Source: Sinohyriopsis cumingii
Lineage: Eukaryota; Mollusca; Bivalvia; Unionida; Unionidae
DNA length: 64,000 nt
Assembly (NCBI GenBank): GCA_028554795.2
Contig: CM068828.1
Span: 21,847,436 to 21,911,435, forward strand
Direction: 5' to 3'
In this document: one piece after another, positions 5,301 through 43,026 of the stretch
Position numbering within the stretch: position 1 is the first letter of the stretch
Layout of the letters: each line of letters starts with the position of its first letter
Made by a program: the position numbers and the translations under genes
The notes under the pieces: model-generated
Database searches by the model: none
Seen by the model: the letters and a program-made list of their open reading frames with translations, nothing else
Told to the model about the DNA's origin: nothing

Positions 5301-8300
5301 CCAGTTATTATGTACTTTTGAGGGAGTGATGTATGTAAGGTGAAGTTGTTTGCATTTAAAATATGCACAATGGAGAGAATGTTGGCATACCTCTATGCTA
5401 CGTTAATGTATTGTGGATGATATATCTTTGGATATTGTACTTTTGAAAATTGTACATGATCTAAGCATACTGCTAACTAAAATGACTGCTCCCTTGTGCT
5501 AAAAAATCAGACTGAGTTAGTCTAAAGTACACTATCTGTAGCAGCTATTAAAATAGGGAAAATGAATTTTGCCAGACTAGACAATACCAACTAAAAGTGC
5601 AATGAATATATATGATGTAAAAAAAGTTATCGGCTCTTTTTTATACAATTTACCTCTGAAGTTCAGGAAGTGAAAATGACCAAGTGGAGCTAGCACATTT
5701 TTTGAAAGGTGCACATATGGAGTAAGGCTAAGCTGTATACTCTATAACCCATATTACACCGATCTGAATCATACACCAAAATAAAGGGAATTAAAGGTTC
5801 TTTGAACTATACCTAACATATGCAAGGTCTTTTGTAAATAAACAGTATAACCAGTGAGGAAAGCCGTGGAAATTCTTTTTCTTTAAAATTCTAACCTTAT
5901 GCAAAATGCGAAACTGTAGAACGCCACCTTAATGGAAAGTCATATCAGCATGGGGTTTTCACCAAAAGACTTCTTATGGTGTCTAGTTGGTCTTAATAAA
6001 AACTGTTCCAATCTAGTAGCCAATATGATGACCACTGTGATGATCTGGGAAATCTTGTCACTGCTTATCCAAGATGGAGAGTCATATCAAGATTGGATCT
6101 TCACCAAAGACTTCTTACGATGCCTGGTTGGTACTAAATTAAAATGGTTTTAATCTGGCATCGTGTGTGGACATCATGGCAGACATCTTAAATATCTTGA
6201 TATTGCTACTTGTAATGGAAAGTTGTATCAACATGGGGTTTTCACCAAGTTGTATCAGCATGGGGTTTTCACCAAGTTGTGTCAACATGGTGTTTTCACC
6301 AAGTTGTGTCAACATGGGGTTTTCACCAAGTTGTATCAACATGGGGTTTTCACCAAGTTGTGTCAGCATGGGGTTTTCACCAGGTTGTGCCAACATGTGG
6401 TTTTCACCAGGTTGTATCAGCATGGGGTTTTCACCAAGTCGTATCAACATGGGGTTTTCACCAAGTTGTATCAACATAGGGTTTTCACCAGAGGACTGAT
6501 TATGATATCTAATTGGTCCTGAATGTAAATGATACCAATGTGACTTCAGATTGGGCTGCCACAGTGGCGATATTGAAAATCTGGGCACTAATTCACCTGA
6601 ATAGATCATCATATCAGCGTAGGTTTTTCAAAACAATTCTTCTAATTATTGTGTCCAGTTTGCTGTAAATGAAAATGGTGCCAATCTTACATTTAAAATG
6701 GTTGCCACATTAGTAAATTTGTAAATCTTTTAGTTCAAGAATATCATAGATGATTTCAACATTAAGCAGTTAAAAGAAGAAATGGTCTTATCTTGATTAA
6801 ATTCTTAGAAATTCTTTTGGACAATAGTGCATCAGTCCCTTCTTTATTTGGGTTATTTATAGTTGTTATTCTACATGCTGTCTTTATTTTGGGTATTTAA
6901 TTAGTTATTCTACATGTAGTCTTTATTTTGGGTATTTATATTATTCCACAAAATTAAATGCCTATCAGTGTCCAAACCTTGTTAGTGGCAAATCCATGAA
7001 TTAAGTTTCCATGAAATTGTCGTTTACAAAACCATGAAAATTGATATCTATGAAAATATATCAGAATACTGATGGGTTTTAAGATATTACAGATAAATTG
7101 TTGAGTTAAATGACCATTGCTGTCAGATACAGCATGGAGACCAGAGTTAAATGACTATTGCTATCAGATAGTACATGGAGACCATTGCTATTGGATATAG
7201 AATGAGGACCAGAGTTAAATGACCATTGCTATCAGATACAGCATGGAGACCAGAGTTAAATGACCATTGCTTTCAGATATAGAATGAAGACCAGAGTTAA
7301 ATAACCATTTCTCTGCTGAATGAAATGACCATTTATGTTCAGAGTTAAATGACCATTTATGTTCAGAGTTAAATGACCATTTCTATCAGATGCAGCATGC
7401 AGACCAGAGTTTAATGACATTTATATGCTGAATAAAATGACCATTTCTTTTCTGAGTTAAATGGCCATTTCTTTGCTGAGTTAAATGACCATTTCTTTGC
7501 TGCGTTAAATGACCATTTTTGGCTGAGTAAATGACCATTTCTTTGCTGAATTAAATGACCATTTCTGGCTGAGTTAAATGACCATTTCTTTGCTGAGTTA
7601 AATGACCATTTCTGTGCTGAGCTAAATGACCATTTCTTTGCTGTGTTAAATGACCATTTTTGGCTGAGTAAATGACCATTTCTTTGCTGAATTAAATGAC
7701 CATTTCTGGCTGAGTTAAATGACCATTTCTTTGCTGAATTAAATTACCATTTCTGGCTGAGTTTTATGACCATTTCTTTGCTGAATTAAATTACCATTTC
7801 TGGCTGAGTTAAATGACCATTTCTTTGCTGTGTTAAATGACCATTTCTGGCTGAGTTAAATGACCATTTCTTTGCTGTGTTAAATGACCATTTCTGGCTG
7901 AGTAAATGACCATATCTGGCTGAGTAAATGACCATTTCTTTGCTGAATTAAATGACCATTTCTGGTTGAGTTAAATGACCATTTCTTTGCTGAGTTAAAT
8001 GACCATTTCTGGCTGAGTTAAATGACCATTTCTTTGCTGAATTAAATTACCATTTCTGGCTGAGTTAAATGACCATTTCTTTGCTGTGTTAAATGACCAT
8101 TTCTTTGCTGAGTTAAATGACTATTTCTGGCTGAGTTAAATGACCATTTCTTTGCTGAGTTAAATGACCATTTCTGGCTGAGTTAAATGACCATTTCTAT
8201 GCTGTTTATATCAGATCCAGCATTCGGACCAGAGGATCAAGCGTTTACAACAGCAGCTACATGACACCCGACAAGCCAGCGTTGGAGCAACTCCAGCAGG

Positions 8301-23300: not shown

Positions 23301-26300
23301 ACCATTGACTATCATTGTCTATCAGTTAAGCTATGAACACTTGCTCGATCAAGTAGAAGTATGCAAAGTATAAGAGACTTTTGCCAAATAGTAAATTTCT
23401 CATGGGATGTGTGATATAAAAAAATTTCAAATAGAAATATGCAAAATATAAGAGACTTTTGCCAAATAGTAAGTTTCTCATGGGATGTGTGATGCTAACC
23501 ATAATGTTTTATAAATATGTATTTTACGAAGAAGTCAACCAAGCATGTGATCTAGGAATAAAGATATAAAAATCAGCTGAGTCATCATAAAACATTTAAC
23601 TGTGGATAAGTTTTTGTATGATTTAGTTCTGGTGAAGAGGATTTGCCTTGTTCATGGAAAATTAATCTGATTCCCAAATCAAAACCCATCAAACCTGTTG
23701 GTTGACCAAAGAAATTACCCAGAGATGATGGGAATGAAGAAGAGCAAAGTACAGAGAAAAAATGCAAGGTTGAACCAGAGACTGTCTCAAATCGTGATGA
23801 GATTTTAGATGCAACAAAAGAAGAAACTGATGGTGTCGGTGCTCATCGTGTGCATTATAGAACATTCATGGTGGATCAATACTGGAAGTAGTTGATTTTG
23901 CAAAACAACATGGAATCTGAGGAGCAGCAAGGCATTTCAGAGTGCCTAAATCATCAATAAGTACCTGGATGAAGTTTGACTGTTCTCAAAATTTAACAGA
24001 ATTAGGACACTTGCTGAGAAGTGTAAGAACTTAAATATGGAGAAGAATCGGACATTAAAATCAACAAGTTGGTTCAGTGGGACTTACAAATCCTTGTGAC
24101 TATTGACAGAATTTGTACATATACTAGCGGGGTCATTGGAAATTCAGAAGATGATGATTTTAAAGCTATATGTATTTGGGTCTCGTAGTTCATGAAAAGA
24201 CACATCTTAATTTTTCGAAAAAGAACATCCATGGCACAGAAACTGCCTGCCGATTTAGAAGATGAAATATCCTTGTTCTCCAAATTTGTGATGGAGAAAT
24301 GAGATGAGGATGAATTTGATGAATCCATGACTATCAGTATGGACAAAACACCCATGTATTTTGACCTTGTACCAGGAAAAAGGAAACTAAATCCTTACGC
24401 ATTCACACAACGGGCGGTGGGGGTGGTAACAAAAAATACACTTAACCCTAGTACTTAATGTTTCAGAATCAGGATAGGTACTACCACCAATGGTTATATT
24501 CAGGGGTGTTCATGATTTGGAAGACCTGAAAATACAGAAGGACTGGGTTGTGACTGTGCAGAAGAAAGCCTGGATGGGCAAGGTGCTGATGTTGCGATGG
24601 ATACAGGAGGCAAATCTAAAATACACACAGAATGCTTTTTCCTTATCATGGATTCATTTGCAGTTCACAAGACATCCACTGCAGAAGGCACTGAAAAATC
24701 TAAATGTCATCCCTGCTGTAATTCTGGGTGAATGTATGTCCAAACTCCAGCCACTAGATGTTTCCATTAATAAACCCATAAAGGCTGAATTATGCAAACA
24801 CTTGACTGCCTTTTTTAAAGAAAGCTGTTGACAAGCTAGCTAAGGATGAGGACTGTAGGCCAGCGATCAAAGCAGCTGATAAACAGACTGTGATCAACTG
24901 GATTGATGATGCTGTAAAACATTAAAGGGTAAATCAGAGCCCACCAAAAAGTCATTTAAAGTGTGCATCATTAGCAACCATAGGAATGGCTGTGAGGACC
25001 ATCTTGTGTGTTCCAGCGATATTGAGCCAGCATTTTATAGTGATGATGAGAAGGATGTAGAGTTAAATGGTTTTGATTTGGAGGACTTGAGCCAGGTGCT
25101 TGCCAAATTAGGATCTCTGCAGAACTTTGACGAAACGGAAAGTAATTAATATGAACTCTTTTGAAAGTGAATATATTTATATTTGAACCGATAGTGTTCT
25201 CTGCATTATCTATTGCACATTCAGTTCCCATGTTAAAACTGTTCTAACTTCATATTCATGCTTTTGTTTTTTTATCACAATACAATCTCTCTCTCTGTCT
25301 CTGTGCCTTCTACTCCATACTATTAGTGTGATTACCTTAGCTAAGTAAAAAGGTTATTTTTTTCTTACTTCAAAGACAAACTATGACTGAGTTCTTCAGG
25401 GTATTACAATTAACTTCAAAGCATTATTTCTGAAACATTTTTATTGTATTTTGGAGTTATTATTTGTGTTAATACACTGGTGCCTGTGATTCAGATCCAA
25501 GGGAGGTACTTCATTCAGTGAAAGTCAAAATCTTTAATGTAGATGTGGTGACGCCATGATGTGAACATTATCTTGTTTATTTCTGCATTGGATCCGAACA
25601 TAAACTCTCTGGACTTGGCAAGCTTGCAGTCCAGTTCATTAACAGATGGTGAATTTCAATAGTCACTTTTAGTTTGCAAGTAAGACTGATCAATACCAAT
25701 TACTCTATGATTTTCAAGCATAATTCAGAGTTTGATGGAAGTCATAATCACTAGTTCGACAGTTTTTAGTATTATATATAATGCAGAGTTTTGCCCTGAA
25801 AGCTTGTACCAGTTATGGTAGAAATTGTGACAGGTATGAGTGCTGCGGAACTGAAGTAGGTCATGTAAGCTAAGCTAGTGACAGTTTTCACAGAGGAGTT
25901 ACATAATATCAAAATGAGATGGAAAACCATATTAGACTATGTAGACTACATGTCTATCTTGTGTTGGATTCTGCATAGCAACAAAATAATCAAAGGTGAT
26001 GTTTGGGCATAATTGTATGGTGTTTGCATAGGAAAGGAAATTTTGGAATGATATGTAGCATTGTGCACTAACATTATGTTCATTGCTGATATCTAGCACC
26101 TGAAAATTTATTGTGATTTGTGACTTGTCTGACCTACAGAGCTTTTATAGTTGGAATTAAATGATCGAAGAATTGAAGACGGTATACTTCCTTCTTATAA
26201 TCCTTCAGATAGTTCGTGACACATTTTGGATATTCCTTAAAATAATAATTTGGGTGATTAAAGATAATCATCACCTACAAATATAACTTTAGGATGCTTA

Positions 26301-29300
26301 GCTCACATTATAGCATTGTAACATTTATCTATGTATTTATTTATTTATTTTTATTTATTTATTTATTTATTTATTTATAGGCAGCTATCATTGCTAATAA
26401 GAAGGAGACGGTGGCAGAGGCTTTGCGTGAAGTACGGGATGAGTACGCACATCTAATGCACGAGGTGGAAGAGAAACGAGATTTGGCTAAGACCTCTAAT
26501 GGTGAGGAGGTACTCAAAGGAGATGAGGTAAGAATGAGTGTAAATCATTTTGTTCCAACTCCTGTTAACACCCAAGGGTTTCAGTAAAATTTTACATGTG
26601 ACATATAGTGTGTTAAACAAACTCTTTAGCAAGTAATGAACATAGACTAAGATAAATAACTTTTTATTTCATGCTACTAAACATTCTACTCACAGCTTCC
26701 ATAAATTGGAAGATTTTTCATTTGTGATAGTTAATATTGATTCTGAAATGGAACAGCTGTTAAAGGAAACATATTTGGTTTACTGTTTGGAGACTGTCTT
26801 TACAAGAGTTTAAAATTTTAAGATTATATATAAACTTCCATAATTGATACATTGATAGTTTTAATCAGTTCTGGGTATTTAATAAATTCTGTGTATTTAT
26901 TCAATTTACATATCAATTCTATATATTTAATCAATTCTTCAAATTTAATCAATTTACATATTTAATCCTATGCATTTAATCAGCACTATGTATTTAATCA
27001 GTTCTACGTATTTATTCAATTTACATATTTAATCAATTCTACTTATTTAATCAATTCTTCAAATTTAATCAATTTACATATTTAATCCTATGTATTTAAT
27101 CAACTCTACATATTTAATCAATCCTATGTATTTAATCAGTTTTACCTATTTAATCCTATGTATTTAATCCACTCTACATATTTAATCAGTTCAATGCATT
27201 TTATCAATTTACATTTTTAATCCTATGTATTTAATCAACTCTATATATTTAATCAATTATATGTATTTTATCAACTCTATATATTTAATCAGTTCAGTGC
27301 ATTTAATCAATTTAGATATTTAATCCTATGCATTATATTTAATCAGTTATATGTATTTAATCAGTTTTGCATATTTAATCAGTTTATTTATTTAATCAAA
27401 TCAACTCTACATATTTAATCAATTCTATGCATTTGATCAATTTACATATTGAATTGATTCCACATATTTATGGATTTAGAGGAAACTCTTTATATATACT
27501 TTGGTATTCTGAAGAGCGATCTGTATCTTTATGATCCATTAGTATGTATCTTTATGATCAATTGCTATGTATCTGTTTGATCCATTAGTATGTATCTTTA
27601 CGATCCATTAGTATGTATCTTTATGATCCATTAGTAATTATCTTTATGATCCATTAGTATGTATCTTTATGATCCATTAGTATGTATCTTTATGATCCAT
27701 TTGGATGTATCTTTATGATCCATTATTATATATTTTTATGATCCATTAGTATGTATCTGATTTGACATTTTTTTATGTGTCATTTTCCAGGCTATTTATG
27801 CATTTAAGACATTGTATGAAGTTGTAGATAGAATGGCTTTCTACATTTCCTGCCATGATGGCATTTTCTTTATAGATCTTTGATGTTTGATCTTCTAGAG
27901 ACCATCTGATGTAAAGAATTATTTAAATTTAGTTTGAAAAGCCATTAAGCAAATGTAGTCATGGATTTTAGGTGTTGGCGTTGTTTGCTTTAAATAATTA
28001 AATAATATGCATAGGTGTCAACCCTTTGAGATGAAAACCTGTATGCCAGACCAATAAAAACCTTACAAAGACCAAAAAACCTTACACTAAAAAATGTATT
28101 CATACATTATAAAAAGATCAACAGTTTTAAAACAACAAATGCTATACACAAATTATTATGACACATATTTACATAATTATTTACATTTCTGAAACTTTAT
28201 TTCATTCTTTTTACTTATAACACTATCATCTTCCTGCTTTGGCGAAGCAAAGAAGCTTTTGATGGATGCTTCCTTCTTCATTTCAAAATTTCTTTCATGC
28301 AGTTTTGCCCTGAAGTGTTCCTCCAGATCATATATGATCGATACCACCACTTTAATGTCTTTACTGCATATTTTACAAAAAGAATGTGAAGATCCTAACT
28401 TGGATACATCTACAATGCCATGGAAGACTTAAATCCAATCAGCCTGAAACTTGCCACGACCTCGGTCAGTGTCTTCAGGCTTGCGTTTCTTTGAGTTAGG
28501 CTCAGCCATTTGATGGATGGAATATTTCAACTAGATGAGAGAAATTTTTTTTTTGTAAATTTAGATTTGACATTTGATAGAGGAAGATCTGCCGATTACA
28601 AATATGTTATGAATTTATATTTGTCCCCATAAACCCCAAGATATTATGCCAAGAGCTATCCAAAAATTGAAATCTAGAAATAAATATTTTTACAAAGTAG
28701 CAGTCCGGAAGTTTATACCTCGTGAGCTGTTGATCGTTTTTATTAAAATTGCGAATCTGGTGTTTGAAAAGTTATTAATTTGCTATAAGGTGTGCCGATT
28801 TTGGTCACAAACTTGATATAAATTGGCAGTGTTAAATATTTTTGAGTCACTCAGTATCTGTCATTATGGCAATGCATCTTCCTGTTTGCATTACCTGTCT
28901 GACAAACTTAACTCAAAACTATAACAGCACGATAAAATGCGGGTGCTAAAATCGGTAGAGTATTTATTTTTAATAAGTATATTGTTAGAAATTTTAATAA
29001 ATTGACTTTATCTCCACACAGAAAAGTCGGACGAATTACGGTTACACGAACATGATTGCCACAATATGTTAAGTTTGAAAATTGATGCAAACTTTATGCA
29101 TTTGATAGTAATAAGTATAAATAATAAAATAATAATGTATAAAATAAGAAACCGTACTTACTACACAGGTAGTTAGTCAATATTAGAAATCGAGTGAGCG
29201 TCTAATCTCCGAGTGATAAATGACAAGATCTTCACACTGGAGGTGAACCATGAATGAAACTCGTTTCATTATCAAAGAAAAAGTGCGGTTTTGAGTATGA

Positions 29301-33139: not shown

Positions 33140-36100
33140 CTCAGCAATGGGGATCAGTGAACATGACTGTCAGAAACAAGAAACTGTCTGTGTATTTTCA
33201 TGGAATTTTTTAAAATATCTACATAAATTAATGCTGGATGTTTGATTGATGAAAAATTACACAAGTGATGAGTTTTGATTGCAAATGCTCTGTCAGCTGG
33301 GTTACAAGTGAAACTAACAGATAATCACAATGATAGAAAGAAGGTTTTCATTGATGTACAAACTGTTTGAGATAACTGTTTACATTTGTCGACAGATAGT
33401 TACAATTATACATACCAGATTTTCGCTGATATACAAACTGTTTGAGATGACTGTGTTTACATTTGTTGACAGATAGTTACAATTATACATACCAGATTTT
33501 CTTAATAAAACAAACTGTGAGATGACTGTGTTTACATTTGCCGATGGATAGTTACAATTATACATACCAGATTTTCATTGATATACAAATTGTTAGAGAT
33601 GACTGTATTTACATATGCCTACAGATGTTTAATCCTAAAGTTTGCCATTTTTATCTAAGAAAAGATAATGAACTAACATAATAGTTACTGTTTCATTTAT
33701 TATTCAATGGTCTGACATGGCCACTATTTCATCTGTTACATAATGGACTGACATACTCTCTATTTTGTTATTTATGCAATAAACTGACATAATATCCGTG
33801 TTTGAGAACATTGAATATGACCACTAAGTCTCTACTTCAATGAAATCACAAAATATGGCCCTGTTATAATAAGTCACTTTTTTAATACTATTAAGAACAA
33901 TTTATTGACTAATCTATTCATTCATTAGAAAAAGAAAAGGGATTGGGACTATCATGCACATACGGAAGTATGTTAGTCCTAACTGCTTTTATATTAAACC
34001 ATAGATCTCTCATTTTTTTGTGCTTAGATTTTCTTAGAATTTAGATGATCATGATGGTGGTTTTTTCCTAACAATAGAAAATGTAGGATAAGTTTTATTG
34101 AAAAAGTCAATTCTATCTATGTCAACACCAAAAAAAAATAGTTTTTAAAAAAAAAAGTGTTAACATTTGTTTGCAGATATTACCATAGACTTGCAATTAA
34201 AAGTTCTACTGTGCCAATCAACCTTATTGTATGTGCAATGTTATGTACTGACTTATAAGTGGAATCCAGTTGCAAACATAATGTGATGGTAGAGCTGGAT
34301 ATATGCAGTTTGTTAGGAGTAATGAGTAGTACAAGCAACATAGACTCTAATCTGCCAGTGCATTATGCAATGACCGATCTGGATCATTTTTGTTTGCAAT
34401 TGAACCAGACTTAAAAGTGAATATATATGGTACTTCCTTGTCCTACTATCAAAAGCCGTTGAAACTATTACCACTAGGTTTAATGAGAATGTTAATAAAA
34501 TATGCTTGGATAAAGTTTGAATTTTACAGTAACTGTTGTGTTATTAGAGTAAAGTAAGAAGTCAAGAATTTTGTATATCATTTGGATTGATGAGGAACAT
34601 AATTTTAACTTTTTTAGTTCAGGTTGCATTAGGAGCACAAAAGGATCCCATGTAATCTATTGATCCAGACTGTAAGATCTAGGTTAAAGGAAAATCCCAT
34701 GTAATCTATTGGATCTAGACTGTAAGATCTAGATCAGAAGAAGATCCCATGTAATCTATTGATCAAGACTGTAAGATCTAGGTCAGAAGAAGATCCCATG
34801 TAATATAGTGGTCCAGACTGTAAGATCTAGGTCAGAAGAAGATCCCATGTAATCTATTGGTCCAGACTGTAAGATCTAGGTCAGAAGAAGATCCCATGTA
34901 ATCTATTGGTCCAGACTAAGATCTAGGTTAGAAGAAAATCCCATGTAATCTATTGGTCTAGACTGTAAGATCTAGGTCAGAAGAAAATCCCATGTAAGCA
35001 ATTGGTCCAGACTAAGATCTAGGTTAGAAGAAAATCCCATGTAATCTATTGGTCTAGACTGTAAGATCTAGGTCAGAAGAAAATCCCGTGTAAGCTATTG
35101 GTCCAGACTAAGATCTAAGTCAGAAGAAAATCCCATGTAATCTATTGGTCTAGACTGTAAGATCTAGGTCAGAAGAAAATCCCATGTAAGCTATTGGTCC
35201 AGACTAAGATCTAAGTCAGAAGAAAATCCCATGTAATCTGTTGGTCTAGACTGTAAGATCTAGGTCAGAAGAAAATCCCATGTAAGCTATTGGTCTAGAC
35301 TGTAAGATCTAGGTCAGAAGAAAATCCCATGTAATCTATTGGTCCAGACTAAGTTCTAAGTCAGTAGAAAATCCCATGTAAGCTATTGGTCCAGACTGTA
35401 AGATCTAGGTCAGAAGAAAATCCCATGTAATCTATTGGTCCAGACTAAGATCTAAGTCAGAAGAAAATCCCATGTAATCTATTGGTCCAGACTGTAAGAT
35501 CTAGGTCAGAAGAAAATCCCATGTAAGCTATTGGTCTAGACTGTAAGATCTAGGTCAGAAGAAAATCCCCTGTAATCTATTGGTCTAGACTGTAAGATCT
35601 AGGTCAGAAGAAAATCACATGTATGTTTGTCCAGACTGGAGGATCTATGTCAGGAGACAACAAATTCTCACAGGTGAAATAATGAAGTTTTCTTGTTTTG
35701 TTTATGTTTCCAGTCTGTGGTAGAGCAGAAACATGGTGTGGCAGGATATCGTCAGACCCAGGATAACATTGAGAAAGTCTCGGCCATGAAGGGGGAACTT
35801 GATGAAACCAAGGGTAGAACACTGGAAGACATTTCTGAGATGGTGAAAATGCTGAATCAAAAAATAGCAACTCGGAAAAGTGCCCTTGCTCCAATCATCA
35901 AGGAACTGAGGCCCCTGAGAGAGAAATCCCAAGTAATGAATTAATAGTCCTTTGAACTGAGGCCCCTGAGAGAGAAATCCCAAATAATGAATTAATAGAC
36001 CTTTGAACTGAGGCTCCTGAGAGAGAAATCCCAAGTAGTGAATTAATAGACCTTTGAACTGAGGCCCCTGAGAGAGAAATCCCAAGTAATGAATTAATAG

Positions 36101-39100
36101 ACCTTTGAACTGAGGCCCCTGAGAGAGAAATCTCAAGTAATGAATTAACAGACCTTTGAAGTAAGGCCCCTGAGAGAGAAATCCCAAATAACAAACTAAT
36201 AGACCTTTGAACTGAGGCCCCTGAGAGAGAAATCCCAAGTAGTGATTTAATAGACCTTTGAACTAAGGCCCCTGATAGAGAAATCCCAAGTAATGAATTA
36301 ATAGACTTTTGAACTGAGGCCCCTGAGAGAGAAATCCCAAATAATGAATTAATAGACCTTTGAACTGAGGCCCCTGAAAGAGAAATACCAAGTAGTGAAT
36401 TAATCGACCTTTGAACTGAGGCCCCTGAGAGAGAAATCCCAAGTAATGAATTAATAGACCTTTGAACTGAGGCCCCTGAGAGAGAAATCCCAAGTAATGA
36501 ATTAATAGACCTTTGAACTAAGGCCCCTGAGAGAGAAATCCCAAATAACAAACTAATAGACCTTTGAACTGAGGCCCCTGAGAGAGAAATCCCAAGTAGT
36601 GATTTAATAGACCTTTGAACTAAGGCCCCTGATAGAGAAATCCCAAGTAATGAATTAATAGACCTTTGAACTGAGGCCCCTGAGAGAGAAATCCCAAGTA
36701 ATGAATTAATAGACCTTTGAACTAAGGCCCCTGAGAGAGAAATCCCAAATAACGAATTAATAGACCTTTGAACTGAGGCCCCTGAGAGAGAAATCCCAAG
36801 TAGTGAATTAATAGACCTTTGAACTAAGGACCCTGAGAGAGAAATCCCAAGTAATGAATTAATAGACCTTTGAACTGAGGCCCCTGAGAGAGAAATACCA
36901 AATAATGAATTAATAGACCTTTGAACTGAGGCCCCTGAGAGAGAAATACCAAGTAGTGAATTAATAGACCTTTGAACTAAGGCCCCTGAGAGAGAAATCC
37001 CAAGTAATGAATTAATAGACCTTTGAACTGAGGCCCATGAGACGGAAATGCCAAGTAATGAATTAATAGACCTTTGAACTGAGGCCCATGAGACAGAAAT
37101 GCCAAGTAATGAATTAATAGACCTTTGAACTGAGGCCCATGAGACAGAAATGCCAAGTAATGAATTAATAGACCTTTGAACTGAGGCCCATGAGACAGAA
37201 ATGCCAAGTAATGAATTAATAGACCTTTGAACTGTTCTGGTTTTCACCAGCACATTAACTATAATGAGGCCCATGAGACAGAAATGCCAAGTAATGAATT
37301 AATAGACCTTTGAACTGTTCTCGTTTTCACCAGCACATTAACTATAATGATTACAGGTGTACCAAAATTGTCAATTTGGCTGAAAATATGAATTTTATAA
37401 CAGTGTACATTTATACAGTAAAATCTGGTAAAAACTCTTCTGTTACTTGTGTTCTTTCTAAAATAACTTCAATGATTTTCTGTGTCGTTACTTTTTGGAA
37501 ACTGTTTTGAAAAATGTTTGTGTCTGGCAAGATAGATATCACATGGGCAGGTTGATCAGTTATTAATCAGCTGTCAGTTATCAGAATCGGAGGAGTGATC
37601 ATGTGTTTGTTTCCAACACTAAAGGTTGTTATCTTGTAGGGTGTATTTGAGTATTTAAGAGAGATAATTAAATAATGTGGATTTTCCCAACATGCATTTT
37701 CTTACAGTCTGCACAGGCATTTCAAAATCTAATGTTTTGCATTGCAGTCCCTGGCGAGTGAATACAATGACAAGAAACAGGCCTATGACACAGCAGCAGC
37801 AGGCCTTGAAAGTAACATGTCCAAATTAGAACAGGTAAGAACTGGACTGTATTCAGTATTGAAATTAATATGTCCAATTAGAACAGGTGAGAGCAGGGCT
37901 GTATTCAGTGTTGAAAGTACTATGTCCAAATTAGAACAAGTAAGAGCTGGGATGTATTTAGTATTGAATGTAACATGTCCAGATTAGAACAAGTAAGAGT
38001 TGGGTTGTATTCAGTATTGAATGTAACATGTCTAAATTAGAACAAGTAAGAGTTGGGTTGTGTTCAGTATTGAATGTAACATGTCCAGATTAGAACAAGT
38101 AAGAGCTGGGTTGTGTTCAGTATTGAATGTAACATGTCCAGATTAGAACAAGTAAGAGTTGGGTTGTATTCAGTATTGAATGTAACATGACTAAATTAGA
38201 ACAAGTAAGAGTTAGGTTGTGTTCAGTATTGAATGTAACATGTCCAGATTAGAACAAGTTAAGAGCTGGGTTGTGTTCAGTATTGAATGTAACATGTCTA
38301 AATTAGAACAGGTAAGAACTGGGGTGTATTCAGTATTGAAAACTTATGGGCAGAATTGTACAGCTGCTAGCTGTAAAAGGCAAGCAGCTCTTGGCTTTTG
38401 AGATAAAACTCTTGGCATTTGTGATAAAGCTTATGGCTTCTGAGATAATGCTCTTGGCATATCTGAGCTAAACCTCTTGGCATCTGAGATAAAACTTTTG
38501 GCATTTGAGATAAAGTTCCTCGCTCCTGAGATAAAGCTCTTGGCATCTGAAATAAAGCTAGCACCCTGAACAAATCATGCAACATAATCTAAGTACCAGG
38601 AGAACGAGTAAGGGGTCATCCATTTAGTATGTATGCAAAAATCTGGCAAAGCTTAAACCCCCCCCCCCCCCCCCCGTACACATGCATACATGGATGGCCC
38701 CCTAAGATGATTTCTTAGAGTTTAGTTTTGATAAATATGAGACACATTGACCTATAATCACTTTCACCATAAATATCCTGACAAGTTTCCAGACCTGTTT
38801 ATTAACTTTGAACTAAAACTTAAACAGTGAAAAGTCAGAGACTGACATTGACCTTTCACTGCTATTTTATTTCATGAAGGTAACAGCTTGAACATTACTA
38901 AGCTAACTGTTCAGTAGAACCCTGAGTGCCCTTTGCCCTGAGTGTCCTTTGCCCTGATGGATCATATTGTCATTCTTGCAGAACATTATGCTGTAATATT
39001 TCTTTGAAAGCAAATGCCACGAGAAACTGTATAAGTAACAGTGAAATTGCAACAAAGTAAAATTATTGGTTTGGTTTGGTCTTTTACGGCACATCAATAC

Positions 39101-42100
39101 ATTCAAGTAGGTCATTTCATTCTGAGCAGCATCCACAGCAACACAAGTAGGTCATTTTGTACCAAGACAGTTGGAGTAAAGTTCTTTGCCCAAGGACACA
39201 TAGAGTTACATTCCTTGCCCAAGTACACACCATGGTAGCTGACACAGTTGATCAGATGGTAGGATTCAAGCCTGCATGATTCTGGTGACAAGCCTTCCAT
39301 GCTAAACAAAAAGCCACTCTGACTTATAATTTAAAATGAAAAAAGAATATCCAGTTAAATTTGTCATAATGTTTTAAAAAAAATGTTTCTTCTTGCAGTA
39401 CAAAACAGTTTTGAAATTTTCAAGTGGTCAAATTAGGCTTAGTTCCCAGTTTTACCAGGACATTTCTATAGGCAGTATTAGATTAAACAACTTTTGGGTG
39501 AATTCAGATTTTGGTTTGTGTGAGCATTTTAAACAAACTGCACATTTGAGTAAAAAAAAAACATAATTTATTTTTGGATTTTAATCACATTTACAAAACA
39601 GAGACATGCCAACTGTTTTTAATACTCATGTGTAATTGATTTGACATGTTAAGGGAAAAAAAGACAAAATTTTAACTGGTGAGAAATAATCCTAGTTATA
39701 ATCTTTTGAGTTCATTTTATTTCTGTTAATTTTTATCAGGAGGTGCGTATTTTCCATGAGGAGTGCACTCAGGAGGAGTCCAGGTATCACTATCTGAACT
39801 GCATGATGGCAATGTTGGATATTCAGCAACAAAGGGTCACAGAGGAGATGAAGGCATACACTTCTCATGACATGTCTGCACGCAGGAAAACATTCAGGTA
39901 TCACTTCCCTTCTTTTGTTCAACCTGCAAATAAAGACGCATTGTAAGATGAAATGTTTAAACCAATACATTTTTAATGGAAGCTCTGATGAGGTTAGCTG
40001 CATTTTTGTCTAGTTATAACATTATCTTGATTGAAGAAGCATAATTTTGACACAGCCAGCCTCTGTATTCTTTTGTTTGCTATGACTCCAGAATCTCCAT
40101 CTGTCTTTTTTTCCCAACACAGTAACTTTTGAAGGACTTCTTCAACTGAAGGACTTCTTAGATGGAAGGACTGCTTAGACTGAAAGACTTCATAGGTTGA
40201 AGGACTTCTTCGATTGAAGGGCTTCGTAGATTGAAACCAAATTTGACATGAGGCTTTATATTTAGAAGACCCAAGTCAAATTAGCTTTTCACAAATTTGA
40301 TGGAGTTATGGCCCCCTGTTTAACTAAGACCTTTTTGTTTGTATTTCTGGTTTGTGAAGAAATGTACAACACTTCATTTTATGTGACAGAGAACAGAATA
40401 TAACATTTGTTCAGTTTTCAAGAATTACTCAGGTGAGGACGTCATTTCAGATAAGTAAAACAGAAAGATCAACAGGGATGAGAATTTTCCACCAGTTGGT
40501 GGATTTCTGAATTTGTTGTGGCTGTCAGGGGATATTTTTGAGATTGGTATATAATTGGGGAGAAAATTGGAGGTGCGTGTCAGTTTGGCACTGCACCAAC
40601 AGTACACTGGTTTATCAGCTTGACACTTATAGTTTTGTTACCATGATTGTTTCAGGTGTAGCTGGCAGAGCAAAAACTGGTCTAATTTTTCTCTCAGTGA
40701 AAACCAGTCTATATTTTTCTCTCAGTGAAAACCAGTCTAATGTTTCTCTCAATGAAAACCAGTCAGAAGAAAAACTAGCATACCAGGCTTGCTGAAGTGT
40801 TGTACAGAATTCAGCTATCACTGGATGTAGGATTGGAATGTTTTTTCATGTATCTTCCTATTTAAATGGCATTGGATGAAAAACCATGGACAGTTTATGT
40901 GCAAAATAACTGGTTTGATAATATGCATCCTGAATTCCACAATGTCATGCACATTTATTATGGGTTGTTCCATTTAAGGATACATGGTACCCAGGGCGGG
41001 TACTTAAAAAAAAAAAAATACTATGGTACTCTGAGTACTCAAAGAGTTTGTGTAAAAATGATTGAAAAATTCTAAATTACATCTTTGGGTGACTATATCA
41101 AATTAAAAATAGTGCCTTCCCTGGGTCCCAAGTATGTTTTACAGGAACAGTCCTAAAGAAAGTGAACATTAAATTAAAAAATGACACCAGCACAATACTA
41201 ATGTATAATCACCTCTTTTCAAATTGCACAGTATGGTATTAAAAGACGAGAATTACACAGATTCAACAAAAGTTTTCCCAAGTATCAGCGTAATTCCTGT
41301 TTATTGTTAATATATTTATGCGTTCAGATGATGACAACTACAAGAAAAAATTACATACCTATGGGACATTATCATACATGCCAACCATTACAAAGACAGG
41401 TTTCTTCAAATTTGAACTTTGCCTCACAGATTTGTTAAATTCTGGCATGTAATATATTTAGATTACACTTTTTATGCCCAAATTACCCTTTCTTCCACTT
41501 ATAATAGCAATAATAATGAATAACAATTACACTTCTTGGTTGGGGGGTTGGTGGCATATATGCATTATTCAATTTATAATTTCCATGGCTGTTAATTGGT
41601 CGAAAATGAAATAGTATAAATCAGGTTGGAACATAGAATCCTCATGTTATAGGTAAGTCTGCATTTTCAATTTGCTGACAGAATTTTATCTGGTTATGAC
41701 AGACAAGTTAAACTTACATATTTTCATTGCTTTGTCATATAATTATCCAAAAAATAATGTAGGGCATGCCTCTAGTATCAGATAAATTTTCATAAAATCA
41801 TTTGGGCCCTGATCACCCAAAATTCCACCCACAAGGTCAGTATTCTTGATTCACCAAGGCTGCTGTCTTTACCTCAGGTCTTTTTTCAGGTTGTTTTAAT
41901 TACTGACTATTGTCAGCCCTGCATTTAGGAGCAGGAAAACAGACTTAAAGAGCTCAGGGATGTAGCTAATAGCAGACTTAAAGAGCAGAGGGATGTAGCT
42001 AATAGCAGTCTTAAAGAGCAGAGGGATGTAGCTATTAACAGACTTAAAGAGCAGAGGGATGTAGCTAATAACAGACTTAAAGGGCAGAGGGATGTAGCTA

Positions 42101-43026
42101 ATAACAAACATAAAGTGCAGAGGGATGTAGCTAATAACAAACTTAAAGGGCAGAGGGATGTATCTAATAACAGACTTAAAGGGCAGAGGGAAGTAGTTAA
42201 TAACAGAAAAGATGCATGTTTCTAGGGGATTAGAAAGGATCAAACCTATCTCTGTCTAGCTAAAGCACCATAAAATTTTATGAATCGCAAGGAATAGTTT
42301 ATTTTCCTCCAAAGACCTGCTTTGTGCAGTCGTTTTCTCAATTAAACACATTCATCTGTCAGATGAATACATGTATTGTATTAGGAAAAAATAGTGATCA
42401 CCCTTTTTTCCTCCAACATTTTGCCAAGAATTATCACTCAATTTTAAAAAGTTGAGTCTGTCAACAACGACTTCAAGTGTACCAGGTCATATGCTGTCAA
42501 TTAGGGCCTTGTGATAAAAAAGTCAACCACATAGAACATAACTTAATGTACTCAAGGTGCCAAGAAGTATATAAAAAAAGAAAACAATGGAAGGTCCTCA
42601 TTGCTAATTTTTTTTCATTCTTTGTTCATATTCACTATCATCCTATCATATTCGCTATCATCTTGTTGCACCATGACTCAGAGATACTGAATTTTTGTCA
42701 TATTTTAGCAGGCGGCACATCAGTGCATGCAGCAATAAAGTGACTTTATCTGATCTTATTCTTGCTGTTTTAACAGAGAAATCTATCAGAAAAAGATCCA
42801 AGAGCAAGAAAATGTAGGGAAGAGTTTACGCGAGCAGCAGAAATCAATTCGTGAGAATCATGAACCCTCCCTTCAGCAGATGAAGATGTGGCGTGATGTT
42901 GAGCGACTGCTGGAGATGAAGAGACTGTGTTATGAGAAGCGTGGTGGAGTTATGGTGGCAGGAGGTGTTTCGGGTTATGGAGAGAAAAAACCAGCAGTTC
43001 TCGAGGATGACAGACTAGTTCTGTAA
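2222..43026 (+). CDS. IFT81: Intraflagellar transport protein 81, C-terminal 488 residues (10 exons, 5' end outside window)
   Basis: IFT81 pairs with IFT74 in the core of IFT complex B, which carries tubulin and other cargo along ciliary microtubules. Exons: 2222-2332, 8215-8299, 9998-10161, 19584-19679, 26381-26527, 30917-31066, 35714-35932, 37748-37834, 39740-39897, 42777-43026. All have AG/GT borders, and their phases join without a stop until TAA at 43024-43026. Blocks recognisable against vertebrate IFT81 include SEPAMG-like [10 protein letters not shown] (exon 3), [19 protein letters not shown] across exons 5-6, [13 protein letters not shown] (exon 7), QEESRYHY (exon 9), [13 protein letters not shown] and the terminal DDRLVL (exon 10). 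This part is the long coiled coil that binds IFT74. The tubulin-binding calponin-homology-like N-terminus is not in the window. The vertebrate protein is about 676 residues. Family assignment is secure; exon borders are by eye. Confidence 0.96.
2333..3173. other. Intron, no feature
   Basis: AT-rich intronic sequence after exon a. A C8-T16 homopolymer run lies near 2972-2994 and a short TG-rich run near 3140-3165. I see no gene and no structured repeat. Confidence 0.5.
3174..3622. repeat. 56-bp minisatellite, about 8 units
   Basis: Near-identical units contain CAGGTTATGTTCACTGCCTT and ATCAATATCCAAGCTCACTT. C/T variants (CTGCC/CTGCT, AAGTT/AAGCT) are shared by neighbouring units, pointing to recent local duplication. 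Each unit also carries CAGGTATTTA, a donor-like word, but no IFT81 exon matches the unit. Confidence 0.9.
3900..6725. repeat. Diverged long-period repeat, ~165 bp units
   Basis: The same ordered set of words returns about every 160-170 bp: a TTGGTCCTAAATGAAAATGG-like word, then ATCCAGTATGGCCACCA, then CAGCCATCTTGAAAATCTTG, then TTATTGCTACT, then CATGGGGTTTTCACCAAAAG, then GACTTCTTATGATGTCTAG. Units are old and differ by many substitutions and gaps. The same family recurs at 32.04-32.76 and 43.11-43.78 kb. The open frames here are short and not protein-like. Confidence 0.8.
6221..6492. repeat. 27-bp minisatellite nested in the ~165-bp repeat
   Basis: About ten head-to-tail copies of a 27-bp unit with core CAACATGGGGTTTTCACCAA. 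This is exactly one segment of the surrounding ~165-bp repeat. On each side the long repeat resumes in register (…GCTACTTGTAATGGAAAG before, GAGGACTGATTATGATATCT after). The 27-bp period leaves frames open on both strands, which explains the apparent ORFs here. Confidence 0.92.
6726..7092. other. Intron, no clear feature
   Basis: AT-rich, with a short imperfect repeat of TTTATTTTGGGTATTTA between 6840 and 6950. No gene or element recognised. Confidence 0.4.
7093..8208. repeat. Minisatellite running into the exon b acceptor; distal units carry acceptor copies
   Basis: Some 40 units of about 24 bp (GAGTTAAATGACCATTTCTT core) fill the space before exon b. The distal part has longer units that include a copy of the real intron-exon junction: 7121-7146, 7230-7255 and 7384-7409 resemble 8209-8234 (22 of 26 positions for 7230-7255), including the CAG of the acceptor and the first exon bases. 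The last unit touches the polypyrimidine region of the working acceptor. Confidence 0.88.
8215..8299 (+). CDS. IFT81: IFT81 exon b (28 codons + 1 nt)
   Basis: After TATATCAG the exon reads [20 protein letters not shown] and ends ATPA with one base carried into exon c (donor GTATTG). The basic, glutamine-rich heptads fit the IFT81 coiled coil (vertebrate counterpart …QRLQRVQNQLK…). Confidence 0.92.
8300..8539. other. Intron, no feature
   Basis: AT-rich spacer between exon b and the 62-bp array. Nothing recognised. Confidence 0.4.
8540..8925. repeat. ~62-bp minisatellite, 6 units
   Basis: Repeated words are TATGGTGTGGCCCTGCATCC, ATCATGCATC and CAATAATTGCATTTTTAGAC. The first units share ACTAGTGTACT and the later units share ACCACTGATCT, so two sub-variants expanded separately. 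Confidence 0.9.
8926..9744. repeat. Diverged long-period repeat (~165-170 bp), about 5 units
   Basis: Recurring ordered words: an AATATGGCTACCATTGCTAA-like word, AAAAGAGAAAC, CTTCTTCAACAA-like, a TGAATTTGACCAAACTTGA-like word, AAGCATCCTGA, then AAGGCTTTTAAATTT-like. Copies are strongly diverged. It differs from the 3.9-6.7 kb family. Confidence 0.6.
9745..9990. repeat. 38-bp minisatellite abutting the exon c acceptor, ~6 units
   Basis: The unit contains ATAGTACAATTATGGTCATG and TCAGCATACCAGTGATAG. The true acceptor region (GATAGTACAATTATG, seven inserted bases, then ATGTCAG before 9998) is the same sequence, and the unit's ACCAGTGATAGA resembles the first exon bases TCCAGCGACTAGA. The array appears to be copies of the junction. 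Confidence 0.88.
9998..10161 (+). CDS. IFT81: IFT81 exon c (phase 1 in, 0 out)
   Basis: After ATGTCAG the exon reads [20 protein letters not shown] and continues to [16 protein letters not shown] before donor GTAAAC. The SEPAMG-like block is one of the best conserved in IFT81. Confidence 0.96.
10350..10590 (+). mobile_element. tRNA-derived SINE, longer copy of the 1.13 kb family
   Basis: The A-box-like head is TGGCTTAAGTGGTTTGAGC (10359-10377) and the B-box region GGATTTGGACCCCGG lies near 10403. The body includes GTCATACCAAACACTTATAA, AATGGTACTAGCAGC, a GGTTGGCCTGGTGTCAGGAT word and GGGTGGGACATGATA. I recall bodies of this type as common in bivalve genomes; this is from memory and was not searched. 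It lies 190 bp into the intron after exon c. Confidence 0.75.
10591..11199. other. Intron, no feature
   Basis: AT-rich intron between the SINE and the large array. A short CA run occurs near 10657-10670. Nothing else recognised. Confidence 0.4.
11200..18710. repeat. Giant 39-bp satellite array, ~190 units, with higher-order structure
   Basis: The unit core is GGACACACATATCTGACTTC followed by ATGGACCTGATCATGTGTA. The first ~650 bp uses a variant (CCTTATCACATTTAGGACAC) in alternating 39- and 37-bp units. After 11.9 kb the main unit takes over. Large blocks are repeated: the segment ending at 12468 recurs at 13011 (543 bp apart). A marker unit GTGATGGGCACACATCTGAC recurs near 14348, 15390, 15928 and 17120. 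Because 39 is divisible by three, long frames stay open on both strands; these are not genes. The array is inside the IFT81 intron between exons c and d. Confidence 0.97.
18711..19254. other. Intron; one unrecognised short frame
   Basis: A 72-codon minus-strand frame at 18831-19049 (TTG start, residues such as [15 protein letters not shown]) looks compositionally protein-like, but I do not recognise it. It lacks an ATG and may be a transposon scrap. Nothing else is seen. Confidence 0.25.
19255..19410. repeat. 40-bp minisatellite, ~3.5 units
   Basis: Units contain AAAAGATACTCAGTGTCTGT and AAGGGAATCAAACCTGTGAT. It ends about 175 bp before exon d. A weak resemblance to the exon d acceptor is described under findings. 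Confidence 0.85.
19584..19679 (+). CDS. IFT81: IFT81 exon d (32 codons, phase 0-0)
   Basis: The polypyrimidine tract TTTTTTTCTGTAG precedes [16 protein letters not shown]...[10 protein letters not shown]; the donor is GTTAGA. It corresponds to the INEINTEINQLIEK…KLSLYRQQ block of vertebrate IFT81. Confidence 0.96.
19680..20187. other. Intron, no feature
   Basis: AT-rich. A single stray copy of a word like the 39-bp satellite (TGTGTGTAGGATACACATAC) sits at about 20080-20100. Nothing else is recognised. Confidence 0.4.
20188..21302. mobile_element. Candidate non-autonomous pogo-type element (1.1 kb between inverted ends)
   Basis: The left end CAGCCAAACCTGTCATAGTG and the reverse complement of the right end (CAGTCAAACCTGTCACTAGA) match over the first 17 bases with one difference. 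TA flanks both ends (20186-20187, 21303-21304). Similar CAGCAGTYACCTG words near each end lie in direct orientation, so this may instead be two MITE fragments with unrelated DNA between. The interior has no coding signal and includes a 13-bp tandem repeat at 20638-20700. Confidence 0.5.
20638..20702. repeat. 13-bp tandem repeat, 5 units
   Basis: GTGTGACAGGCAT repeated head to tail without mismatches except at the edges. Confidence 0.9.
21303..21332. repeat. (TA)n(GA)n microsatellite
   Basis: A short TATATATATA run is followed by GAGAGAGAGAGAGAG, directly beside the right end of the 20.2-21.3 kb element. Confidence 0.9.
21333..22104. other. Intron, no gene
   Basis: AT-rich. It includes a partial repeat of AAAATATAGATTTTTATCTA-type words near 21700-21780. 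No element recognised. Confidence 0.4.
22105..22350. repeat. ~21-bp minisatellite, ~12 diverged units
   Basis: The unit core GAGTTGACTAGTTATGACTG varies at several positions (GTGAGTTGACTAG, GCAAATTGATTAG). It lies inside intron 4 of the window. Confidence 0.85.
22351..23344. other. Intron, no gene
   Basis: AT-rich sequence with T-runs near 23033-23045 and 23171-23180. No protein-like frame or element ends seen. Confidence 0.4.
23345..23500. repeat. 79-bp tandem duplication
   Basis: Two copies of a block containing ATAAGAGACTTTTGCCAAAT and TTTCTCATGGGATGTGTGAT lie 79 bp apart with few differences. Confidence 0.9.
23640..25150 (+). pseudogene. Decayed pogo/Tigger (CENP-B-like) transposase
   Basis: This is a DDE transposase relic of the Tc1/mariner-pogo group, read in pieces over all three frames. 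In order: an N-terminal helix-turn-helix region (frame fragments near 23860-23990, including [13 protein letters not shown]); a CENP-B-type helix-turn-helix with [20 protein letters not shown] (24195-24260); the first DDE aspartate block [13 protein letters not shown] (about 24338-24376, usually MDETP); then VQKKAWM (about 24560) and the later block [16 protein letters not shown] (about 24740-24790). An acidic tail runs to the stop at 25147. Stops and frame changes at several points (for example 24188, 24300, 24830) make it non-functional. No terminal inverted repeats are visible beside it. It sits in sense orientation in the IFT81 intron. Confidence 0.85.
25151..26329. other. Intron, no gene
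   Basis: AT-rich sequence between the transposase relic and the TTTA run before exon e. A CT-rich run occurs near 25287-25305. Nothing else recognised. Confidence 0.4.
26330..26378 (+). repeat. (TTTA)n microsatellite forming the exon e acceptor tract
   Basis: TATTTATTTATT repeats run directly into ATAG before exon e. They replace the usual C/T-rich tract, so the branch point and tract must lie inside or upstream of the microsatellite. Confidence 0.85.
26381..26527 (+). CDS. IFT81: IFT81 exon e (49 codons, phase 0-0)
   Basis: The exon reads [20 protein letters not shown]... to GEEVLKGDE, then donor GTAAGA. The ending GEEVLKGDE aligns to the conserved GTEVLKGDE of vertebrate IFT81. Confidence 0.97.
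26820..27480. repeat. AT-rich 15-19 bp repeat field (ATTTAATCA core)
   Basis: TATTTAATCAATTC, TATTTAATCAGTT and related words follow each other for about 650 bp with irregular spacing. Longer blocks, such as TTTAATCAATTTACATATTT plus neighbours, are duplicated within it. Confidence 0.85.
27515..27765. repeat. 23-bp minisatellite, ~10 units
   Basis: Unit TATGTATCTTTATGATCCAT plus TAG repeats with few differences. One unit carries TTTGGATG instead of TTAGTATG. Confidence 0.9.
28010..29516 (-). mobile_element. hAT-like element remnant with zinc-finger N-terminus
   Basis: A perfect 13-bp inverted repeat CATAGGTGTCAAC bounds 28010-29516. On the minus strand a frame from the ATG at 28507-28509 starts [20 protein letters not shown], meets a TAA after about 27 codons, and continues in the same frame with FCKIC…HFRAKLH (about 28270-28390), a C2-H2 BED-like finger, then [11 protein letters not shown]. 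Such a start is known from hAT transposases. No catalytic domain is present, so the copy is non-autonomous. Flanks AATATG/AATGTG are only a doubtful target duplication (hAT normally makes 8 bp). Confidence 0.65.
29560..30372. repeat. 54-bp minisatellite built from a pogo-type MITE end, ~15 units
   Basis: Each unit contains TACAGTAAAACCTGTTGTAG followed by TGGTCATCTGGACAC. This is the terminal sequence of the MITE family seen intact at 654-831 (TA + CAGTAAAACCTGT… + TGGTC). Units alternate CACAAAACC and CACCAAACC variants in blocks. Frames of 279 and 273 codons across it are by-products of the 54-bp period. Confidence 0.93.
30373..30916. other. Intron, no feature
   Basis: AT-rich sequence up to the exon f acceptor. 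No element recognised. Confidence 0.4.
30917..31066 (+). CDS. IFT81: IFT81 exon f (50 codons, phase 0-0)
   Basis: After TTATAG the exon reads [20 protein letters not shown] to [11 protein letters not shown], then donor [18 protein letters not shown] is nearly invariant in IFT81. Confidence 0.98.
31067..32039. other. Intron with a ~35-bp repeat at 31560-31725
   Basis: Between 31560 and 31725 about five diverged units contain TTTTCCCATCAACCTCTGTG and TAAGACCTTTGGG. The remainder (31067-31559, 31726-32039) is plain AT-rich intron without recognised features. Confidence 0.5.
32040..32765. repeat. Second locus of the ~165-bp diverged repeat
   Basis: Ordered words match the 3.9-6.7 kb field: TTGGTCCTACATGAAAATTG, then ATGGCCATCACAGCAGCCAT, CTTGAAAATCTTGCTATC and a CAACTCCTTCTGAAAAGTAC-type word. 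It ends after GGTGCCAATCTGACATACCA near 32735. The short-period array at 32336-32600 is nested in it. Confidence 0.8.
32336..32600. repeat. 26-bp minisatellite nested in the ~165-bp repeat, ~10 units
   Basis: Unit TTGGTCCTGAATGAAAATGG plus TGCCAA, almost perfect. It is a different part of the ~165-bp repeat from the segment amplified at 6221-6492. Confidence 0.93.
32766..33358. other. Intron; (GA)n run
   Basis: A (GA)n run of about 34 bp lies at 33103-33136. The short open frames here have no recognisable similarity. Confidence 0.45.
33359..33625. repeat. ~77-bp minisatellite, ~3.5 units
   Basis: Repeated words are GATAGTTACAATTATACATA, CCAGATTTTC and GAGATGACTGTGTTTACATT. The third unit has a short deletion in the middle. 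Confidence 0.88.
33626..34649. other. Intron; one weak repeat
   Basis: At 33675-33800 about three diverged ~55-bp units share AATGGTCTGACAT / AATGGACTGACAT / AATAAACTGACAT. Otherwise plain intron with A-runs near 34130-34160. Confidence 0.45.
34650..35660. repeat. ~50-bp minisatellite upstream of exon g, ~20 units
   Basis: Units contain GACTGTAAGATCTAGGTCAG and AAGAAAATCCCATGTAATCT. A 4-bp shorter variant (GACTAAGATCTAAGTCAG) alternates with the full unit, making dimers of about 95 bp over much of the array. The last unit (TATGTTTGTCCAGACTGGAG, about 35620-35640) lies 75 bp before exon g and resembles its acceptor. Confidence 0.92.
35714..35932 (+). CDS. IFT81: IFT81 exon g (73 codons, phase 0-0)
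   Basis: After TTTCCAG the exon reads [20 protein letters not shown], passes [13 protein letters not shown] and ends [10 protein letters not shown] before donor GTAATG. It matches the central coiled-coil block of vertebrate IFT81 (…KGRTLDDMSEMVKKL…IKELRQLRQKYQ). Its last 30 bases and the donor are the seed of the array that follows. Confidence 0.98.
35903..37345 (+). repeat. 51-bp minisatellite made of the exon g 3' end plus splice donor, ~26 units
   Basis: The first unit is the real junction (exon bases 35903-35932 plus 21 intron bases). Further units repeat GAACTGAGGCCCCTGAGAGA, GAAATCCCAA and the donor GTAATGAATTAATAG. Most keep GT at the donor; about six read AT (CAAATAATG or CAAATAACA). 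The last four units share CCCATGAGACAGAAATGCCA. The 3' end then carries two 93-bp composite units (about 37150-37345) that add CTGTTCTGGTTTTCACCAGC. The long minus-strand frames here are by-products of the period. Confidence 0.96.
37346..37747. other. Intron, no feature
   Basis: AT-rich sequence up to the TTGCAG acceptor of exon h. Nothing recognised. Confidence 0.4.
37748..37834 (+). CDS. IFT81: IFT81 exon h (29 codons, phase 0-0)
   Basis: The exon reads [20 protein letters not shown] and ends ESNMSKLEQ, then donor GTAAGA. Vertebrate IFT81 has the matching block (…[23 protein letters not shown]). The following repeats copy its last 29 bases and donor. Confidence 0.97.
37806..38345 (+). repeat. 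53-bp minisatellite made of the exon h 3' end plus splice donor, 10 units
   Basis: Each unit holds GTAACATGTCCAAATTAGAA, CAR and a donor (GTAAGA, GTGAGA or GTTAAG) followed by a CTGGGTTGTATTCAGTATTG-like spacer. Donor positions include 37835 (true), 37887, 37940 and 37993; the last is near 38310. The third donor is in frame with exon i. Confidence 0.96.
38380..38570. repeat. ~24-bp minisatellite, ~8 diverged units
   Basis: Core words CTCTTGGCATTTGAGATAAA / CTCTTGGCATCTGAGATAAA repeat with substitutions. Confidence 0.85.
38571..39059. other. Intron; C18 run
   Basis: A run of 18 C lies at 38658-38675. A small direct repeat GAGTGCCCTTTGCCCT / GAGTGTCCTTTGCCCT lies at 38924-38955. No gene. Confidence 0.45.
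39060..39325 (-). mobile_element. Candidate second SINE family, minus orientation
   Basis: On the minus strand a B-box-like GGCTTGAATCC (reverse of 39252-39262) is followed downstream by a CTTGGGCAAGGAATGTAACT word and another GTCCTTGGGCAAAGAACTTT copy, a body typical of invertebrate tRNA-derived SINEs. The A box is degraded and no target duplication was found. Confidence 0.5.
39326..39739. other. Intron, no feature
   Basis: AT-rich sequence to the TTATCAG acceptor of exon i. Confidence 0.4.
39740..39897 (+). CDS. IFT81: IFT81 exon i (52 codons + 2 nt)
   Basis: The exon reads [20 protein letters not shown] and continues to [17 protein letters not shown] with AG carried over to exon j; the donor is [14 protein letters not shown] and TEEMKAY are conserved IFT81 words. 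Confidence 0.97.
39898..40670. other. Intron with a ~20-bp repeat at 40130-40240
   Basis: About six loose units of GAAGGACTTCTTAGATTGAA-type sequence lie at 40130-40240. The remainder has no recognised feature. Confidence 0.5.
40671..40775. repeat. ~31-bp minisatellite, 3 units
   Basis: TTTTTCTCTCAGTGAAAACC followed by AGTCTAAT repeats three times with small changes. Confidence 0.9.
40776..41928. other. Intron, no gene
   Basis: AT-rich sequence with an A-run near 41008-41020. No protein-like frame or element ends seen. Confidence 0.4.
41929..42215. repeat. ~33-bp minisatellite, 8 units
   Basis: Units contain AGACTTAAAGAGCAGAGGGA and TGTAGCTAATAAC. AGAGCAG and AGGGCAG variants segregate into the first and second half. 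Confidence 0.92.
42216..42776. other. Intron, no feature
   Basis: AT-rich sequence to the TTTTAACAG acceptor of exon j. Confidence 0.4.
42777..43026 (+). CDS. IFT81: IFT81 terminal exon j (82 full codons and stop)
   Basis: With AG from exon i the exon reads [20 protein letters not shown], then [20 protein letters not shown], and ends EDDRLVL followed by TAA (43024-43026). The C-terminal EDRLIL-type ending is typical of IFT81, which confirms the true stop. Confidence 0.98.

Follow-up and report, generated by a model that had tools for sequence, protein, structure and literature searches.

In the potato RdRp gene, a tandem genomic duplication across an intron–exon boundary produced a new intron and a new exon, as summarized in PMC4974935. 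In intron 6 of human TERT, 38-bp minisatellite repeats situated more than 1 kb from the junctions change splicing by RNA pairing, by the summary account in PMC3948165. Tandem alternative 5' splice sites, as outlined in PMC2423196, are pairs a few bases apart. No description of a donor amplified many-fold was found in titles and abstract openings, which were searched with narrow terms and covered few subscription journals. The locus analysed here lies in a 64,000-nucleotide stretch of the Sinohyriopsis cumingii genome (the window), where a repeated 51-bp unit includes the exon–intron junction of a real exon, as in a boundary-spanning tandem duplication. The copies run head to tail and the unit lies within the 10–100 bp range of a minisatellite.

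IFT81 exon 7 and its 51-bp array

Exon 7 matched intraflagellar transport protein 81 in the solved structure 8bd7_F with an E-value of 2.7e-11, and the 10 exons within the window joined phase-consistently into a 488-residue IFT81 frame with a stop at its end. The best relative was the IFT81 of the freshwater mussel Sinanodonta woodiana (P0001), which differed at 11 of the 488 positions (98% identity), followed by an unnamed sequence at 79% and by named bivalves at 63–74%. When the genome was searched with P0001 (65 of 1,542 candidates scored), all 12 matches were located at the IFT81 locus. The ten columns aligned to the end of exon 7 were each occupied by a residue in all 120 listed IFT81 proteins, and the ortholog residue counts given below refer to these 120 of the 992 found. 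Judged by these matches, the gene encodes the cilium-building protein IFT81 and the end of exon 7 is old coding sequence. Animal IFT81 proteins share conserved residues at the exon 7 end, which is therefore the source of the array. The features of the locus are collected in Table 1.

Table 1. Positions of the exons, splice site and arrays within the window (a slash marks the splice site)
Feature	Position	Strand	Remarks
Intron 1 array	7103..8204	+	Exon 2 acceptor with roughly the first 20 bp of its exon, in four copies (7121, 7162, 7230, 7384)
IFT81 exon 2	8215..8299	+	Acceptor side copied upstream
IFT81 exon 7 (exon g)	35714..35932	+	73 codons, phase 0; contributes its last 30 bases to unit 1
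51-bp array, 26 full units	35903..37228	+	Unit 1 is the last 30 bp of exon 7 and the first 21 bp of intron 7
Exon 7 donor, CAA/GTAATG	35933..35938	+	Weak U1 pairing, -1.6 kcal/mol (duplexfold)
Distal block, units 23–26 and copy 27	37025..37311	+	Possible fossil of an earlier exon end
Tail of the 51-bp array	37229..37350	+	Right flank (GAACTGTTCT...) duplicated along with one extra unit, period 83; displays the right border and GAACTG
IFT81 exon 8	37748..37834	+	Its end, like that of exon 7, is set by the IFT81 frame and the 98% match to P0001
53-bp array, 10 units	37806..38340	+	Starts 29 bp before the exon 8 end; holds the donor CAG/GTAAGA; bounded by TTGAAA

The repeat finder described the array at 35903 with a period of 51, 26.1 copies, a 93% match, and a score of 2279. 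The 51-bp period counted from this position was in register with the working exon, and the unit opened with the last ten codons of exon 7, followed directly by the donor GTAATG, both as the original prediction had stated. The predicted amplification of about 26-fold also held, with 26 full units and a 27th copy; the predicted end at 37345 was replaced by the end of the tail at 37350. The 27th copy was 47 bp long (37265–37311) and was flanked on both sides by copies of the right flank. The exon-derived 30 bases were indeed common to the units, since the exon 7 end matched later units with E-values down to 3e-19 in a search within the window. When a 154-base piece of the array was compared with the 2.9-Gb genome, scoring only the best candidates and skipping very common words, the 12 matches all fell within the 51-bp array.

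Counting the 27th copy, 20/26 later copies retained the donor GT (19 of them among the 25 later full units), in agreement with the predicted number of about 20, and the remaining six copies carried AT. The nine donor bases were unchanged in 13 of the 25 later full units. The exon frame was said to meet TAA and TAG in each unit; the TAA was present in 26/26 full units, while the second stop, TAG, was absent from units 5 and 10. The frame after the first donor read V-M-N-stop, and use of any later donor would therefore introduce the anticipated premature stop codon.

Across units 2 to 26, departures from the consensus were similar, amounting to 0.040 per site in the exonic part and 0.046 in the intronic part. 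A unit of the AT type was followed by a unit of the GTAGTG type in 6/6 cases, and variant units recurred in blocks, a pattern that fits unequal exchange. Arrays are hard to assemble, and for this general reason an assembly artefact might have inflated or even invented the array. The ordered variants and recurring blocks among the units, the several separate arrays with differing units, and the location of 12 of 12 genome matches at one place make such an artefact scarcely credible.

Borders, sister arrays and placement

Two direct copies of the word GAACTG were found, one in the exon 30 bp from the junction and one in the intron 21 bp from it. The right flank of the 51-bp array also started with GAACTG and then diverged. 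The word shared by the borders of the 53-bp array, TTGAAA, was likewise an exact 6-bp match. Such borders are the mark of tandem duplication between short direct matches. Since exact 6-bp matches bounded both donor arrays, the seed was probably the segment between the matches, and the junction would have been included by chance. The exon–intron junction itself had been proposed as the seed. As stated, this proposal was rejected, because GAACTG and TTGAAA set the borders and the placement was at chance level: two array ends were located in exons versus 1.83 expected from random placement of 26 arrays, with a probability of 0.54 for at least two. Splice boundaries inside arrays numbered two versus 6.8 expected (P = 0.023 for two or fewer). 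The number of array ends in exons became three when the exon 2 array was counted, which reaches the exon by homology and is ended earlier by the repeat finder.

Both donor arrays were included in a comparison of endings across 43 clean arrays, taken from the window and from the fetched stretches. Clean arrays had a period of at least 20, at least three copies, at least an 85% match, and at most 1% indels, with the smallest period kept. Of the 43, 29 ended on whole units with no more than 10 bp left over, versus 28% expected (P = 1e-7, to which the end rules of the repeat finder may contribute slightly). The two donor arrays therefore resembled the others in their endings.

Two successive introns, those after exons 7 and 8, carried donor arrays. 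The donor GT of the 53-bp array at exon 8 was kept in 10/10 units; the first and last units had CAG/GTAAGA and units 3–8 the weaker CAA/GTAAGA. The third donor of this array would add 105 bases, or 35 codons, in an open frame. In the intron 1 array, the best copy of the exon 2 acceptor was identical at 26/30 positions, a score reached by 0 of 500 shuffles (p = 0.004 for the exon part alone), and the copy at 7162 was more diverged. The additional copies were all on the intron side in the exon 7, exon 8, and exon 2 cases, which is to be expected if the reading frame is preserved only when the outermost site is used.

The explanation that we consider highly probable is the ordinary birth of a minisatellite across a splice site, tolerated through use of the first donor. 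A 51-bp segment across the exon 7/intron 7 junction, bounded by the chance match of GAACTG, would have been duplicated in tandem, and unequal exchange would then have enlarged it to 26–27 copies. Slippage could have acted as well as, or in place of, unequal exchange. Splicing at the first donor alone would keep the reading frame, which would leave the extra copies in the intron. Splicing would mainly use the first donor, and the later ones, most of them identical, would be tolerated, yielding at most some transcripts that carry a premature stop. The donor of exon 8 and the acceptor of exon 2 would have met with the same accident, in a gene whose span within the window is 41% tandem arrays.

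The frequency of such arrays elsewhere was estimated from a kinesin sample, composed of 49 of 122 kinesin-domain exon matches in 40 stretches (230 kb, 11% array). Kinesin domain matches can fall short of the true exon ends, and margins of 15 bp for array overlap and 80 bp for the repeat search were used. An array overlapped the exon match in 0/49 cases, with a 95% upper bound of 6%, and in stretch L049 one array adjoined the acceptor. Repeats of the exon surroundings within the stretch were found in 4/49 cases at E-values up to 0.01. These comprised a weak 68% match of 50 bases across the acceptor in L013, repeat matches just outside the exon match in L028 and L040, and a case in L021 (2680–2762 and 3368–3455), where an apparent kinesin exon end with its donor recurred 688 bp downstream as the apparent end of a second small exon. 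Exon-spanning arrays thus look uncommon elsewhere. Donors inside arrays numbered 2/9 in IFT81 versus 0/49 for the kinesin exons (P = 0.022), a comparison in which IFT81 was chosen because of the feature and is 41% array versus 11% in the kinesin sample. The amplification of an acceptor and two donors within a single gene exceeds what the kinesin sample contains, and this counts against the birth of ordinary minisatellites as the explanation.

Three further candidates for exon-derived repeats were rejected. The array at 34645–35657, upstream of exon 7, shared a 14-base similarity with the exon 7 end (best shuffle 26 versus 23, p ~0.014, one of six comparisons). The match of the array at 9753–9970 to the exon 3 acceptor was intronic, with p = 0.34 for the exon part alone. 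The 33-bp array at 41938–42207 was compared with exon 10 (p = 0.30), and its frame stopped early when it was joined to exon 9. Over 41929–42222, the 33-bp array was open for 98 codons of repeated peptide; an acceptor-like TTTAG precedes it, and its frame is not that of exon 9. A 39-bp array of about 190 copies (11208–18703) occupied most of intron 3, and an ATTT microsatellite (26323–26380) extended to the exon 5 acceptor. An intronic DDE_1 transposase fragment (Pfam PF03184, E = 6e-8) was located at 24478–24828, and type 2 DNA polymerase B (PF03175) was matched weakly, below cut-off, at 61795–62100. This match lies among overlapping open frames at 59–63 kb, which may perhaps belong to a large DNA transposon.

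Donor choice and splicing

The frame and the proteins of relatives, mostly gene predictions, point to use of the first donor. The exon 7/8 junction was without an insert in all 14 relatives' proteins aligned in full view, and the exon 8/9 junction in 13 of the 14 inspected, including S. woodiana; these proteins are mostly gene predictions and their species may lack the arrays. The Pinctada protein P0007 had an insert at the exon 8/9 junction, which was unlike the 53-bp array.

The U1 pairing of the first exon 7 donor (-1.6 kcal/mol) was equaled in 19 of the 25 later full units, and 13 of the 34 GTs of intron 7 outside the array paired with U1 as well as or better than this donor. The real donor of exon 8 had a U1 pairing of -11.0, equaled by two later copies, and the other seven were weaker (-4.5 or -2.2). 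Weak donors were also found at exon 1 (-2.6) and exon 4 (-1.0), with no array over their junctions. Since the exon 7 donor was weak and no better than its copies, U1 pairing does not explain why the first donor would win. Its position, its exon context, and the order of transcription are candidates for its advantage.

Intronic U1 sites can help 5' splice site selection. The copies, each a purine-rich exon piece with a U1-like site, might accordingly strengthen recognition of the weak first donor, and the poor pairing of this donor is consistent with such a role. The weak donors of exons 1 and 4 have no array over their junctions, however, and the strong donor of exon 8 has one, which makes the helper role very unlikely.

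A regulatory role of the later donors was also considered, in which they would be used on purpose and the degraded premature-stop transcripts would tune IFT81 output. The GT is kept in 20 of the 26 later copies, use of any of which would include a stop codon, and such arrays occupy two successive introns. The intronic part that holds the donor, compared as a whole, nevertheless departs from the consensus no less than the exonic part, and the weaker pairing of 7/9 later exon 8 donors (-4.5 or -2.2 versus -11.0) suggests decay over upkeep. With placement at chance level in addition, purposeful use is highly improbable.

The later donors could instead be used at a clear but unregulated level, in which case the array would be a mild burden. 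The score of the first exon 7 donor is equaled by most of the later ones, and the third exon 8 donor opens a frame of 35 codons. The absence of an exon 8 end insert from 13/14 relatives argues the other way and says little, since those relatives may lack the array; on balance we regard appreciable use as unlikely. The exon 7 array is most likely without function. With about 20 equal donors lined up and the full protein obtainable from the first alone, the array offers a natural experiment on the choice of the 5' splice site by the spliceosome, to which the neighboring exon 8 with its ten donors adds.

Distal copies and described systems

When units 23–27 were compared with the exon, three shared exonic base differences were found, all residue-changing (L5M, E7Q, and S9C). 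The exonic part of the distal block spelled a shared ten-residue variant, with the exception of unit 23, which differed, and of copy 27, which was without the first four bases; flank sequence stands in their place and was disregarded. The residues M5, Q7, and C9 were present in 19, 96, and 60 of the 120 IFT81 proteins, respectively, and the distal ten-residue variant was the exact sequence in 10/120 orthologs. Q7 was found in 5/5 other named bivalves (P0003, P0005, P0007, P0008, and P0013), and C9 in 0/5 of them. The other seven residue-changing variants of the full units, six outside the distal block and one in unit 23, occurred in 0/120 proteins.

Among the possible residue-changing single-base changes, 6/68 gave a residue seen in at least three of the 120 proteins. 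The probability that three of three would match by chance was 4e-4, or 1.7e-4 over all 90 changes, in a test made after the fact. Looser versions gave P ~0.007 for residues seen at least once (14/68) and P ~0.03 for Q alone. When units were disregarded, at least three matches among all ten residue-changing variants of the 26 full units had P = 0.037.

These matches suggest that an earlier state of the exon 7 end may be preserved in the distal copies. The distal units would then represent the older exon end, and the exon and proximal units would have changed together since, by concerted evolution through in-register exchange, possibly carrying intron variants into coding sequence. Three residue changes without a silent change in 30 bp are odd for a conserved exon, which is against this reading, as are the lack of C9 in the five named bivalves and the post hoc nature of the test. 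No fossil signal was found in the exon 8 array, where the commonest change, S to C, occurred in 0/120 orthologs and K to R in 3/120. In the exon 2 copies, S was changed to A in 1/4 (A in 66/120 orthologs) and G was present at that residue in 3/4. We hold the fossil reading as a tentative possibility. In the S. woodiana protein, the residues of the exon 7 end are those of the modern form. If the fossil reading is true, the exon changed after the birth of the array and before the split from S. woodiana, and S. woodiana should therefore carry the array or its remains. An older exon sequence would in that case be readable from a single genome, and coding sequence would be exchanging with an intronic minisatellite.

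Like the potato RdRp duplication, the duplication at exon 7 spans an exon–intron boundary and duplicates a splice signal. The potato case, in its summary (PMC4974935), is one duplication with a new intron and exon, whereas about 26 donor copies with no new intron evident are present here. The AGGT model of Rogers (1989), in outline, shares with this locus the duplication within a gene of a piece with a splice signal. It differs in that an AGGT exonic duplication makes a new intron, whereas no such duplication is present here and the IFT81 copies remain intronic. The TERT intron 6 repeats, as summarized in PMC3948165, are likewise a minisatellite within an intron of a gene; in IFT81 the repeat contains the junction itself. 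Tandem alternative 5' splice sites, in the outline of PMC2423196, also offer a choice of several candidate donors at a single exon end. In contrast to those pairs, the exon 7 end of IFT81 is followed by about 20 copies spaced 51 bp apart.
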